A stretch of DNA of 64,000 bases, taken from Ideonella benzenivorans. Its GTDB lineage: Bacteria; Pseudomonadota; Gammaproteobacteria; Burkholderiales; Burkholderiaceae_C. The first letter of the stretch is position 1; the number at the start of each line of letters is the position of its first letter. The DNA is taken from NCBI RefSeq assembly GCF_020387415.1, contig NZ_JAGWCB010000008.1, forward strand, positions 62,001 to 126,000, written 5' to 3'. The position numbers were made by a program, and so were the translations under genes. This document shows, in pieces, positions 1,958 through 53,072 of the stretch. The notes under the pieces were generated by a model that was given only the letters and a program-made list of their open reading frames with translations, had not been told where the DNA came from and did not search any database.

Positions 1958-4066
1958 ATGACAGAAGTCCCCGAGCCCCAGACGGCCGCTGTTGCGATGC
2001 CGCCGCTGCTCAACCGCGAATTGGCCATTCTGGCGTTCAACCGCCGGGTGCTGGCCCAGGCCCGGCGCGCCGATGTGCCGCTGTTGGAGCGGCTGCGCTA
2101 CATCACCATCGTGGCGTCCAACATGGACGAGTTTTTCGAGGTGCGTTTTGCCGATGCGCTGGGGGCCGCCCGGGCCGCCGACAGCGATGCCGCCTGGAAG
2201 GACATGGCCACCACCGCCGCGCGGGCCCATGCGCTGCTCGACGAGCAGTACCGCATGTTCAACACCGAGGTCATGCCGGCCTTGCGCCGGCTGGGCATCG
2301 AGATCATCAACCACGCCGAGCGCACGCCGGCCCAGAAGGCCTGGGTCGCGCGCTTCTTCGAGCGCGAGGTGCGGCCGCTGCTGATGCCCGTCGGGCTGGA
2401 CCCGGCGCACCCGTTCCCGCAGGTGCCCAACAAGTCGCTGAACTTCATCGTCCGCCTGGGCGGGCGCGATGTGTTCGGCCGCGAGAGCACGGTGGCCATC
2501 GTCAAGGTGCCGCGCGTGCTGCCGCGCGTCATGCGCCTGCCCGACGAGGTCTGTGAGCCGGGGCAGCAGGGCTTCGTGCTGCTCTCCAGCGTCATCCGGG
2601 CCCATCTGCAGGCGCTGTTCCCCGGCCGCACCGTCGAGGCCTTCTCGCAGTTCCGCGTCACCCGCGACTCCGACCTGGAGGTGGACGAGGAGGACGTCAC
2701 CAACCTGCGCCAGGCCCTGCGCCGTGGCCTGACCACGCGCCAGTTCGGCAAGGCCATCCGGCTGGAGGTGGTGGCCAGCTGCCCCGAGGAGCTGTGGTCG
2801 CTGCTGCTGGAGCAGTTCGACCTGCCGGCCGCCGCGCTCTACCGCGTGGACGGCCCGGTCAACCTGGCCCGCCTGACCCAGCTGATCGACCGGGTCAGCC
2901 CGGTGGACGGCGTGGCGCTGACCTTCCCGCCGTACGAGCCCAGCTGGCCCGAAGACCAACTGCCGCGCGGCCACAACGTGTTCGAGATCCTGCGCGGACG
3001 CGACGTGCTGCTGCACCACCCGTTCCAGAGCTTCGACCCGGTGGTCGAGTTCCTGCGCCAGGCGGTGGAGGACCCGGACGTGCTGGCGATCCGCCAGACC
3101 ATCTACCGCACTGGCGCCAAGTCGGTGCTGATGGACCTGCTGATCGAGGCGGCCCGGCGCGGCAAGGAAGTGATGGCCGTGGTGGAGCTCAAGGCCCGCT
3201 TCGACGAAGAGGCCAACATCAACTGGGCCGAGCGGCTGGAGGCCGTCGGGGCACAGGTGGTCTACGGCATCGTCGGCCTGAAGACCCACGCCAAGCTGCT
3301 GCTGGTGACCCGGCGCGAGGGCGGCGGCAAGATGGGGCCCAGGCTGCGCCGCTATGTGCACCTGTCCACCGGCAACTACAACCCGCGCACCGCACGGCTC
3401 TACACCGACATCGGCTACCTGACGGCCGACCCCGGCATCACCACCGATGCCGAGGCCGTGTTCCAGCAGATCGCCAGCCTGAACCGGGTGCGCCCGCCGC
3501 GCCACCTGCTGACGGCGCCCTTCGTGCTGCACCGCCGGCTGGTCCGGCACCTGGCCCAGGTGGCCGAGGCGGCCCGCGCCGGCCAGCCCGCCCGCATCGT
3601 GGCCAAGTTCAATGCGCTGACCGACCCCGGGCTGATCAACGCGCTGATCGCCGCCGGCCAGGCCGGGGCCCAGATCGACCTGGTGGTGCGGGGCGCCTGC
3701 ATGCTGCCGCCGGGCCTGCCGGGGCAGACCGAGAACATCCGGGTGCGTTCGGTGGTCGGGCGCTTCCTGGAACATTCGCGCGTGCTGTACTTCCGCTGGG
3801 GCCCGTCGGACGACGACGAGGTGCTGTACCTCTCCAGCGCGGACTGGATGAGCCGCAACATGTTCCGCCGGGTCGAGCTGGCCTGGCCGGTGAACGACCC
3901 GGGCCTGCGCCAGCGCGTGATCGACGAGTGCCTGGTGCCCTACCTGTACGACGCCTGCGATGCCTGGCAGCAGCAGCCCGATGGGCGCTACCAGCGCGTG
4001 GGCGAGGAGGGCCCGAGTGCGCAGCATGCCCTGATGGCGCGTTTTGCCGATACCGAACGGGACTGA
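1958..4066 (+). CDS. ppk: polyphosphate kinase 1
   Basis: Ppk1 reversibly polymerises the terminal phosphate of ATP into inorganic polyphosphate at the inner membrane. The 702-residue product has normal family length. It begins with the N-terminal signature LNRELAILAFNRRVLAQA and ASNMDEFFEVR, and contains the two catalytic histidine regions of the phospholipase-D-like C domains: THAKLLLVTR with YVHLSTGNYN, then FLEHSRVLYF. The stop at 4064-4066 is followed after 4 bases by sixA, so the two genes are probably one transcript. A Pho box (1920-1946) indicates induction by phosphate limitation. If the -10 element proposed there is right, the mRNA would be nearly leaderless; a second in-frame ATG at 1997 is the alternative start. 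Identity is very secure. Confidence 0.97.
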   Translation: MTEVPEPQTAAVAMPPLLNRELAILAFNRRVLAQARRADVPLLERLRYITIVASNMDEFFEVRFADALGAARAADSDAAWKDMATTAARAHALLDEQYRMFNTEVMPALRRLGIEIINHAERTPAQKAWVARFFEREVRPLLMPVGLDPAHPFPQVPNKSLNFIVRLGGRDVFGRESTVAIVKVPRVLPRVMRLPDEVCEPGQQGFVLLSSVIRAHLQALFPGRTVEAFSQFRVTRDSDLEVDEEDVTNLRQALRRGLTTRQFGKAIRLEVVASCPEELWSLLLEQFDLPAAALYRVDGPVNLARLTQLIDRVSPVDGVALTFPPYEPSWPEDQLPRGHNVFEILRGRDVLLHHPFQSFDPVVEFLRQAVEDPDVLAIRQTIYRTGAKSVLMDLLIEAARRGKEVMAVVELKARFDEEANINWAERLEAVGAQVVYGIVGLKTHAKLLLVTRREGGGKMGPRLRRYVHLSTGNYNPRTARLYTDIGYLTADPGITTDAEAVFQQIASLNRVRPPRHLLTAPFVLHRRLVRHLAQVAEAARAGQPARIVAKFNALTDPGLINALIAAGQAGAQIDLVVRGACMLPPGLPGQTENIRVRSVVGRFLEHSRVLYFRWGPSDDDEVLYLSSADWMSRNMFRRVELAWPVNDPGLRQRVIDECLVPYLYDACDAWQQQPDGRYQRVGEEGPSAQHALMARFADTERD

Positions 4067-50261: not shown

Positions 50262-50271
50262 GCGGTCCGCT

Positions 50272-50298
50272 GTAAGGAAGCGGGTTCGGTCCACGACA
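50272..50298 (+). promoter_or_regulatory. ECF-sigma-like promoter of the bufferin locus
   Basis: GTAAGG (50272-50277), a 16-base spacer, then CGACA (50294-50298). This resembles the GTAAC-N16-CGA(A) promoters of the ECF sigma factors that control bufferin operons in other Proteobacteria. The predicted start is near 50305, 75 bases before bufA. It is a pattern match only. Confidence 0.4.
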
Positions 50299-50380: not shown

Positions 50381-50665
50381 ATGAACACCCCCTTTCCCCG
50401 TCTGTCTTCCGTTCTGCTGGGGGCCAGCACCCTGGCCTTGTCGAGCCTGGCGGCGGCGGCCGGCACGCCTGCCGGGGCCACCGGCGCAGCTGTCGGCGCC
50501 GCGGACACGGTGCACTGCTACCAAGTCAACAGCTGCAAGGGCATGGCCGACTGCAAGACCACCGAGCATGCCTGCAAGGGGCAGAACAGCTGCAAGGGTC
50601 AGGGCTTCAAGGCCCTGGATGCCAAGAGCTGTCTGGTGCAGGGCGGCGTGATCAGCGACCTCTGA
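50381..50665 (+). CDS. bufA: bufferin-like RiPP precursor with six core cysteines
   Basis: A 94-residue precursor. A Sec-type signal (residues about 1-27, [17 protein letters not shown]) leads to a Gly/Ala-rich spacer and a cysteine-rich core. Core cysteines are 46, 52, 58, 65, 71 and 84, spaced C-x5-C-x5-C-x6-C-x5-C-x12-C, with the repeat [12 protein letters not shown]. This is the second bufferin class (BufA2-like), not the four-cysteine DUF2282 class. Bufferins are copper-binding peptides whose cysteines are turned into thiooxazole-type heterocycles by an MNIO enzyme and then exported. The next gene encodes that enzyme, and its ATG overlaps the bufA stop (TGATG). A good ribosome site AAGGAA precedes ATG 50381. 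The symbol is used for the family role. Confidence 0.85.
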
Positions 50666-52398
50666 TGCCGATCCGGGGCTGCTGCGGCGGCCCCGGCACT
50701 GCACACGCCATGCCGTCGCATTCCCACGCCTCGCCGGGCTTCGGCCTGGGCTTGAGGACCCCGCATTACGCCGATTTCCTGGCCGGTCCCCAGCGGGTGG
50801 ACTGGTTGGAGATCATCACCGACAACTTCCTTGGCGCCGGCGGCAAGCCGCTGACCTGCCTGGAACGCTTCCGGGCCGACTATCCGATCGCCATGCATGG
50901 CGTGGCCCTGTCGCTGGGGGGGACCGATCCGTTGGACCGGGACTATCTGCGCCGCGTGCGCCAGCTGGCCGACCGGCTGCAGCCGCTGTGGGTGTCCGAG
51001 CACCTGTGCTGGACCGGGCAGGGCGGGGCCGTGCTGCACGACCTCTACCCCTTGCCCTACACCGAGGCCTGCGCGCGCCATGTCGTGCAGCGCATCCGCC
51101 GGGCGCAGGACCTGCTGGGGCGCCGGCTGGTGCTGGAGAACGTCTCCAGCTATGTCCGCTACCGTTCGTCGGAGGCGACCGAATGGGACTTCCTGGCCCA
51201 TGTGGCCGAGGAGGCCGACTGCGAGCTGCTGGTGGACGTGAACAACATCCACGTCAGCAGCGTGAACCACGGCTTTGAGGCCGCACGCTATCTGGCGGCC
51301 CTGCCGGCGTCGCGGGTGCGCCAGATCCACCTGGCCGGCCACTCGCGCCAGGATCATTTCCTGATCGACACGCACGACCATCCCGTGGCGCCGGAGGTCT
51401 GGGCCTTGTATGGGCAGGCCTGCGAGCGGTTTGGCGCGGTGGCCACGATGATCGAGCGCGACGACCACGTCCCCCCGCTGGCCGTGCTGCTGCAGGAGCT
51501 GGACCAGGCGCGCGCCGTGGCCACCGCGCACGGCACCTCGCCATGGGGCACGGACTCATCCCATGCGGCGACAGATGAGCGCCGTGCGCCAGCGCTGGTC
51601 GTTTCATCCTGTCGGCCGCCTGAGTTGGCCCCGCTGCAGCAGGGCTTTGCCGCGATGGTGCTGGCCCCTGACGCGCCGCGGGCGACGCCGGTGATGCTCG
51701 ACCCCGCCGGGCCGCTGGCCGGGCTGCGTGGGGCGCAGGTCTACCACCACGCCTACCGGGCCCGGTTGCAGGAGGCCCTGGCCGACAGCTATCCCCTCTT
51801 GCAGCGCTATCTGGGCGAGGCCCAGTTCGGCGAGCTGGCGCAGGCGCTGGCGCAGGAAGCGCCGCCCCGTGAGCGCAGCCTGGCGTCCTGGGGGCGCGAA
51901 TGGCCGGCACGGCTGGCGCAACGCTTTCCCGCTCACCCTGAGGTGGCGGAGCTGGCCGCGCTGGAGTGGGCGCTGCGCAGCGTGTTCGATGCGGCCGATG
52001 CACCCGCCTGGACCGTGAGCGAGATCGAGGCCCTGGGCGCGCAGACCTGTCTGGCGCAGTGGCCGGTGCTGCACCCGACCTGGCAGCTGCTGTGGCAGCG
52101 GACTTCGGCGGTGGTTTTGTGGCAGGCACTGCAGGCGGGCGAGGTGCCGGCGCCGGTCCAGCACTGGGAAGCACCTCGCCCGGTGGCGGTCTGGCGCAAG
52201 GGGCTCCAGCCTCACTTCATGAGCCTGGACGACCCGGCCGAGGTTGCCTGGTTGCAGGCGCTGGCAAGGCCGGGGCAGTCGATCGCCCAGGTGTGGGAGG
52301 CCGCCGAGGCCCTGGGCCATGCGCCTGACCCGGCCACCCTGGGCCAATGGCTGGCCCGCTGGTGGAGCCAGGGCTGGCTGCTCAGGCGCGCGGCTTAG
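50665..52398 (+). CDS. MNIO/DUF692 maturase fused to DUF2063 partner (BufB-BufC fusion)
   Basis: One continuous 577-residue frame carries two domains normally encoded by separate genes. Residues about 25-290 are a DUF692 multinuclear non-heme iron oxidative enzyme: [62 protein letters not shown] and ERDDHVP supply the His/Glu/Asp metal ligands. A polar linker follows ([18 protein letters not shown]). Residues about 315-450 are DUF2063 ([34 protein letters not shown]), the precursor-recognition partner of BufB. The remaining residues complete a second BufC lobe. ATG 50665 couples to bufA; ATG 50710 is the alternative. The stop overlaps that of the convergent CBS gene by three bases. Confidence 0.85.
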
Positions 52399-52985
52399 AA
52401 GTGCGGTTCCGGCATGCCCGGCGTGCCCCAGGGCTTGAACACCACACGGGGCGGCCGCGGGGCCGGCGCGGGGGCGGCCGGCGGCGCGGCCGCGGCCGCG
52501 GCCGAGCTGTCGACCGGGGCCGGCGCTTGCAGCGCGGCGCGCTGCTGGCTTTCGCGCAGCAGGCCGCTGCGCAGGGCCTGGGCCAGCTCGGTCAGCTCGG
52601 CGGCCATGGCTTCCAGCAGGTCATCGGCCGAGACCAGGCCCACCAGGGCCTGTTCGTCGTTGATGACCAGCAGGCGCCGCACACCCGCCTCGCGCATGGT
52701 CTTGGCCGCCTCGCCAAGGCTGGCCGAGCCGGGCACCGTCACTGGGTCCCCCTGGACCAGCAGGCCCACCTGCACGTGCGGGGCGGGCAGCTCACGCGCC
52801 AGCACCTCCACCGCCAGGTCACGGTCGGACACCAGGCCCAGCACATGGGGGTGCGTGCCCTCCTCGCGGTGGACCACCACCAGAGCGCCGACGTGTTCGG
52901 CGCGCATCAGGCGGGCGGCTTCGGCCAGGCTGGCCGTGTCGTCGACCGAGACCAGCGGATGACGGCAGAGATGGGTGAGGCTCAT
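52395..52985 (-). CDS. CBS-domain pair protein with Pro/Ala-rich tail
   Basis: A 196-residue soluble protein with two CBS motifs (about residues 5-60, [19 protein letters not shown] ... [14 protein letters not shown], and 68-125, [18 protein letters not shown] ... [14 protein letters not shown]). Such pairs bind adenosine nucleotides as sensors. After a helix ([17 protein letters not shown]) comes a low-complexity Ala/Pro tail ending in [14 protein letters not shown], an odd conserved-looking terminus. ATG 52985 is chosen. It converges on the bufferin operon, with stop codons interleaved at 52395-52398. Confidence 0.85.
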
Positions 52986-53072
52986 GGCAGGGTGGGAAGA
53001 GCAGAAAACACCCATTCGACCACCTCGGCGGTGGGATCTGAATTGACCTTGCTCAAGTTGGGCGGGATCCCG

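Follow-up and report, generated by a model that had tools for sequence, protein, structure and literature searches.

At positions 50381-52398 of the 64,000-nt stretch of DNA that we analysed (the window) lies a two-gene bufferin operon of the Buf2 type, in which a precursor gene, bufA2, is followed by a single frame for a fused enzyme, bufBC (Table 1). The precursor scored 94.3 bits against the NCBIfam model NF050166 (Cu_RiPP_BufA2; cut-off 60), its ORF translation has cysteines at residues 46, 52, 58, 65, 71 and 84, and by eye its residues 1-27 resemble a Sec signal peptide. An earlier reading made without database searches (the sequence-only reading) had proposed a compact operon with a bufferin-type precursor and these same six cysteines, and on both counts we agree with it. 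Six cysteines and a position directly 5' of an MNIO gene are expected of a BufA2 precursor, and this is the arrangement found here. The gene downstream of bufBC is convergent and encodes a CBS-domain protein, so there is no doxX 3' of bufBC on its strand. A PADLOC scan returned no match, and near-identical plasmid copies were absent from the plasmid collection searched.

Table 1. Features of the fused bufferin operon in the window, including putative elements, and the second bufferin locus of the genome
Feature	Position	Strand	Basis or remark
Putative ECF-sigma promoter, TGTAAGGA-N15-CGA	50271..50296	+	84 nt 5' of bufA start
bufA2 precursor, 94 aa	50381..50665	+	NF050166 score; signal-peptide-like N-terminus by eye
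bufBC maturase-partner fusion	50665..52398	+	577 aa if read from ATG 50665, 562 aa if from ATG 50710
Possible intercistronic RNA hairpin, CCGGGGC...GCCCCGG	50673..50696	+	7 Watson-Crick pairs
BufB (MNIO, PF05114) domain, residues 26-286	50740..51522	+	PF05114 358.2 bits
Linker, residues about 291-320	51535..51624	+	low pLDDT, variable length, near-neutral
BufC-type part	51625..52395	+	PF09836 58.1 bits; model secondary structure
CBS-domain gene	52395-53015	-	convergent with bufBC; stop codons overlap by two bases
Second, unfused gig-like bufferin locus	L129 1138-4524 (G000 contig 9, 102500-109500)

The bufBC frame contains no internal stop codon, and both of its domains score above the relevant cut-offs. 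The N-terminal part matched MNIO_BufB (NF050167) with 371.9 bits (cut-off 310; residues 26-283) and PF05114 (cut-off 25), and the C-terminal part matched DUF2063 (PF09836; cut-off 27.2) over residues 324-414. The same C-terminal part reached 15.3 bits against NGO1945_C (PF22106), below the cut-off of 27, and the HvfC equivalog NF050145 gave 21.7 bits, below the 142 needed for assignment to HvfC. Where BufC is otherwise expected from a separate gene 3' of bufB, here it forms part of the fused frame. That maturase and DUF2063 partner are one polypeptide was the central claim of the sequence-only reading, and it stands: a stop codon near 51540 that would part the domains was looked for and none was found, the identical fused architecture exists in other genomes, and the search for further DUF692-DUF2063 fusions which that reading recommended recovered the same architecture in 28 distinct proteins.

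Residues H78, H113, E158, D191, N193, N194, H222, D235, H237 and E264 of the MNIO domain are invariant in 26 aligned fused proteins, and several of them align with positions in 3bww, TglH and MbnB; we take these His, Glu, Asp and Asn positions to be the ones usually regarded as metal ligands. The structure prediction advocated by the sequence-only reading was run on the 577-residue protein alone (AlphaFold2, 93-row alignment) and gave a confident overall arrangement of two confident domains (mean pLDDT 93.0, pTM 0.90), with confidence falling mainly at residues 1-20 and at the linker, about residues 291-320 (pLDDT block means 51, 64 and 80). A protein from another fusion lineage, L126, was predicted equally well (pLDDT 94.6, pTM 0.91). 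In the model the C-terminal part has three strands followed by three helices (474-568), and strand-then-helix is the order required of RRE domains (PMC12710340). Foldseek matched the maturase half to 3bww (E 1e-17), TglH (8hci) and MbnB (7dz9 and 7fc0), and no partner-protein structure stood among the best 50 matches listed.

The sequence-only reading had also suggested that the linker may reveal how BufC positions the peptide, and this our results do not support. The gap between the domains varies from 16 to 46 residues (48-138 nt, median 61.5 nt) in 26 distinct fused proteins, and the linker dN/dS spans 0.33-1.8, with values above 0.65 in 10 of the 12 pairs that could be computed (14-31 codons; 3 of 15 pairs were saturated). 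Among six close fused genes the corresponding values were 0.11-0.24 for the MNIO domain and 0.20-0.50 for the BufC part. Both domains are under purifying selection and the linker hardly. Because its length varies and its evolution is near-neutral, the linker looks like a loose tether rather than a positioning device.

Where does translation of bufBC begin? As had been noted, the last base of the bufA2 stop codon (TGA, 50663-50665) is also the first base of an ATG. Another ATG in the same frame follows at 50710, which leaves the true start uncertain. By eye, neither ATG is preceded by an obvious Shine-Dalgarno sequence, and the residues encoded between them fall within the N-terminal stretch of low model confidence. 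We listed the in-frame starts from the precursor stop to the enzyme domain in 17 loci, namely 16 of the main clade (with L099 representing its near copy L098) and L133. In five of these (L008, L019, L022, L024 and L133) the sole in-frame starts are at least 60 nt 3' of the precursor stop, which argues for a late start, for instance at 50710. Another four (L023, L025, L026 and L027) have short gaps with starts no more than 20 nt from the stop, and L004 and L005 possess both early and late ATGs. We lean towards the view that bufBC is read from 50710, which gives 562 aa. The possible hairpin listed in Table 1 falls between the two candidate ATGs. As a conserved element it is weak: its 7-pair stem is not significant alone (P 0.09), perfect stems of at least 8 pairs occur in 6 of 17 related intercistronic stretches (0.37 expected), and fold z-scores lie beyond -2 in only 4 of the 17. 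In L133 a perfect 20-pair hairpin (fold z -6.6) separates the precursor and enzyme genes, and the frames 3' of its fused gene resemble, by eye, ECF sigma and anti-sigma genes.

Fifteen of 16 congeneric genomes had a match and 7 encode a fused protein (G000, G004, G006, G007, G008, G009 and G010). The order scan matched 197 of 399 genomes, at least 12 of them with a fusion when the genome of the window is counted (G000, G071, G073, G112, G127, G166, G203, G284, G313, G355, G369 and G395), while the class scan matched 222 of 369 genomes (at least 3 fused: G000, G504 and G629) and the phylum scan 146 of 398 (at least 2 fused: G000 and G071). Most of the MNIO matches listed in the order, class and phylum scans are non-fused, and hence fusion is not required. 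Among 80 loci kept from 282 relatives in named genomes, 11 were fused, including those of Ideonella sp. B508-1, Ideonella oryzae, Undibacterium crateris, Aquabacterium sp. A7-Y and metagenome-assembled genomes labelled Curvibacter and Limnohabitans. A long-frame search for hidden fusions, in which 20 regions were taken, added two (L154 and L166). Duplicate loci were merged (L005 with L018, L006 with L057, L007 with L019, L013 with L130, and L001 with L003, L142 and L147). When ten other fused proteins were searched against Pfam, 9 had both domains; the tenth, L130, had no Pfam DUF2063 match and its partner half was assigned by a profile built in this analysis. L130 (2082-3908 in G006, of the same genus) is a separate fusion behind a BufA1 precursor and its C-terminal part is strongly diverged.

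We examined the history of the fusion in three trees. By parsimony, a tree of 135 MNIO domains (26 fused; identical domain sequences entered once) requires six changes of state, and well-supported branches force five of these. A more careful tree was built from 79 of the 142 rows, comprising all 28 fused and 51 hand-chosen split sequences with the long-branch L017 and L074_878 excluded; it again gave six changes between fused and split, all forced (bootstrap 5-95% range 6-6). Here 17 sampled loci, that of the window among them, make up a single all-fused clade (support 99/97), although both tree and clade are biased towards fusions, most fused loci having been fetched by similarity to a fused protein. 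The tree built from 133 rows of the BufC half is in agreement, with six changes and support of 100 for the all-fused clade. The closest split relatives, with weak support, are betaproteobacterial BufA2 systems such as that of Methyloversatilis. The fusions sit as islands among split systems, and the six changes are most simply explained as repeated fusions, although the changes by themselves cannot be called gains.

The precursors encoded beside the fusions differ as well. Across the clade of the window the same precursor type was recognised by motif 5' of the fused genes, and the six cysteines are kept in 17 of 17 aligned precursors. Among the fusions other than L154 and L166, the precursors are BufA2, BufA1 and one untyped: L133 has a BufA2 precursor by motif, Pfam recognised a BufA1 (DUF2282) precursor in L124, L126, L130 and L141, and a motif did so in L123, L125 and L127. 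The untyped precursor, of L122, is rich in CKG and scored 28.8 bits against the BufA2 model, below the cut-off of 60; it lies at 3732-4001 on the minus strand in G355, with repeated CKG motifs and no DUF2282 match. In L028-L031 and L143, one stop codon is all that parts bufB from bufC within a common frame, and these are possible halfway stages to fusion, or the reverse; the single-stop rows L101, L132, L134, L136 and L139 may resemble them. At L163 (1712-2595 in G731) a bufB homologue extends over two overlapping frames, apparently frameshifted, and an intact bufC comes after it.

A further question is how the operon is regulated. No sigma-70 promoter was found between 50150 and 52600, and a terminator scan likewise found none, yet GCCGCC-TTCG-GGCGGC-TTTTTT is visible by eye 5' of bufA. 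The window contains a single match to TGTAASS-N14-18-CGA (0.28 expected), a pattern framed after we had read the sequences themselves and seen a TGTAA element repeated upstream of the genes of the clade. In the 4.49-Mb genome the pattern TGTAAGGA-N14-17-CGA has exactly 2 matches, compared with 3 for the reversed control, so that it is the placing of the matches before MNIO operons and not their number that counts: one precedes the window operon and the other the operon on contig 9, and no MNIO operon besides these two was found in the genome. The contig 9 locus consists of bufA1 (DUF2282 75.6 bits, cut-off 22.4), split bufB and bufC, and doxX, and is divergent from genes for an ECF sigma factor and a zf-HC2 anti-sigma factor; the genome has no NrsF anti-sigma factor. 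Since the motif is shared by both MNIO operons and one of these stands beside an ECF sigma gene, the two operons may form one regulon under one ECF sigma factor.

In the genus, 33 motif sites compared with 27 for the reversed control hardly raise the total, but 16 of 28 MNIO places have one of 16 such sites within 600 nt upstream on the same strand (0.004 expected), those 28 being what is left of 36 scan rows after eight that match only the C-terminal half were removed. Four other sites in the genus read as Cys-Lys-Glu-Leu and may lie inside ECF genes. Among loci with a motif-recognised precursor, TGTAA[C/G]-N15-18-CGA was present in 13 of 18 regions 5' of fused BufA2 operons (0.03 expected from simple shuffles), and elsewhere in 24 of 47 split BufA2, 4 of 4 split BufA1 and 0 of 6 fused BufA1 regions. 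The window motif resembles the Caulobacter sigmaF consensus, GTAACC-N16-CGAA, yet differs from it in 3 of 10 bases (PMC3511200). This shared motif, which is new here, supplies a specific candidate for the promoter of a bufferin regulon under ECF control.

How does the window operon compare with known systems? With Buf2 clusters, as these are presented in the available text of PMC12452194, it shares the six-cysteine BufA2 precursor, BufB, a DUF2063 partner that is putatively of the DUF2063/RRE kind (PME-type 1) and the order bufABC, but in those clusters BufB and BufC are separate proteins. That text reports no sigma-factor genes in Buf2 clusters, and for the window operon the shared motif suggests control in trans. 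The bufferin fusions it reports concern precursors (with MerC, cytochrome c and EF-hand), none being of BufB with BufC. It also gives the mass loss of Buf2 per cysteine, the same as for Buf1 and with similar absorbance at 305 nm in Caulobacter, rather than per cysteine pair as the sequence-only reading had it (PMC12452194). A counterpart of the fused protein is an engineered HvfBC fusion (PMC13419390, a 2026 preprint), in which, likewise, the C-terminus of an MNIO enzyme is joined to its DUF2063 partner, there of the DUF2063/RRE kind, although that fusion is man-made, lacks a linker and has an oxazolin (EGKCG) precursor as its substrate. The accessible part of the preprint names no natural fusion with a DUF2063 partner. 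MovX, like the window protein, is a natural MNIO enzyme with an extra C-terminal domain (RRE or winged-helix), but it belongs to methanobactin-like clusters of Vibrio, and in the available parts of both sources no DUF2063 is mentioned for it (PMC13419390, PMC12452194). The contig 9 locus shares the plan of gigPABT with rpoQ-rsqA in Cupriavidus metallidurans, whereas the window operon differs from gigPABT in having no adjoining sigma or doxX gene, a BufA2 precursor and fused enzymes (PMC10304878). In the portions of the open literature that we consulted, we found no description of a natural BufB-BufC fusion (PMC12452194, PMC8692599, PMC12710340, PMC13419390, PMC12141560, PMC13174530, PMC12538549, PMC12257519). 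Such proteins presumably already sit in sequence databases.

We consider it likely that this locus of an Ideonella-like betaproteobacterium is a Buf2 operon pared down to two genes, in which a fused BufBC holoenzyme matures a copper-binding BufA2. In the mechanism we propose, stress would free an ECF sigma factor that switches on the window operon and the second bufferin operon. The BufC half would then bind the precursor in the cytoplasm, probably via its signal peptide, which may also delay Sec export. Bufferins bear Sec signal peptides and their partners are DUF2063-RRE proteins, and according to a preliminary statement the signal peptide seems to be part of the BufB-BufC recognition sequence (PMC12452194). 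Contact with BufC would render the multi-iron centre of the attached BufB half competent, and this half would oxidise cysteines to copper-binding thiooxazoles, and the mature peptide would be exported and chelate copper in the periplasm. Fusion would hold BufB and BufC at 1:1 and always within reach of each other, with the linker as a loose tether. In the related pair, both activity and the active, mixed-valent Fe(II)/Fe(III) state depend on HvfC, HvfB and HvfC made separately and then mixed are inactive, and the engineered HvfBC fusion shows markedly higher activity than the two proteins coexpressed (PMC13419390, preprint). Given this need for the partner and the greater activity of the engineered fusion, it is plausible, by analogy, that the natural joining of BufB to BufC is an improvement over separate proteins.

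Could the fusion instead be real but without functional consequence, neighbouring bufB and bufC genes being joined from time to time to give a product no better than two proteins? We regard this as a serious possibility, though on balance doubtful. Pairs such as L028-L031 and L143, in the same frame and one stop codon apart, show that joining can need few steps, and the predominance of non-fused systems among the scan matches listed favours this reading. Against neutrality, the fused state persists in 17 diverged loci with no sampled reversal, and the engineered fusion of the related pair gained activity (PMC13419390). Furthermore, bufB and bufC differ in frame in 103 of 113 split pairs, whose median bufB-bufC gap is 23 nt, shorter than the median of the fused gaps given above, so that joining usually takes more than the loss of a stop codon. 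The same frame mismatch means that a small insertion or deletion could in principle join overlapping frames by sequencing or assembly error, but 28 distinct proteins, spread over many genomes, share the architecture, so that explanation is refuted by the fused relatives and has next to no probability.

Two other readings concern what the operon makes. It is very improbable that the fused gene also yields free BufC through an internal translation start: there are in-frame GTG and TTG codons near the linker, but by eye no Shine-Dalgarno-like sequence accompanies them, and the linkers of most aligned relatives lack a methionine. The function of the window system is predicted from sequence, which leaves room for the idea that modification of the precursor has been lost and that the enzyme is decaying or serves another role; however, the dN/dS values of both domains in the six close fused genes and the retention of all six cysteines in the 17 aligned precursors make this very unlikely. 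Returning to the holoenzyme reading in its broadest form, we advance tentatively, as something that may well hold, that these are natural self-sufficient bufferin synthases: fusion of BufB to BufC would have happened about six times and with precursors of at least two families, the reason being that BufB attains an active iron state only with BufC bound, so that a permanent holoenzyme pays under stress, and in the genus one ECF sigma factor would switch on both the BufA1 (split) and the BufA2 (fused) operons via TGTAAGGA-N14-17-CGA.

We conclude that the BufB-BufC fusion is real, stable and recurrent, and that it represents a variant within a known system, not a new kind of system. The candidate promoter bears on C. 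metallidurans, where control of gig by RpoQ is assumed but unproven and, in the available text, the gig promoter is not identified (PMC10304878). Weak binding of the partner, or insolubility of the enzyme on its own, can make MNIO enzymes difficult to work with; for HvfB the engineered fusion solved this problem (PMC13419390, 2026 preprint). Natural BufBC fusions, several of them with different linkers, offer ready-made homogeneous material for structures, spectroscopy and peptide engineering, and they permit a direct test of whether assembly of the holoenzyme limits bufferin maturation.
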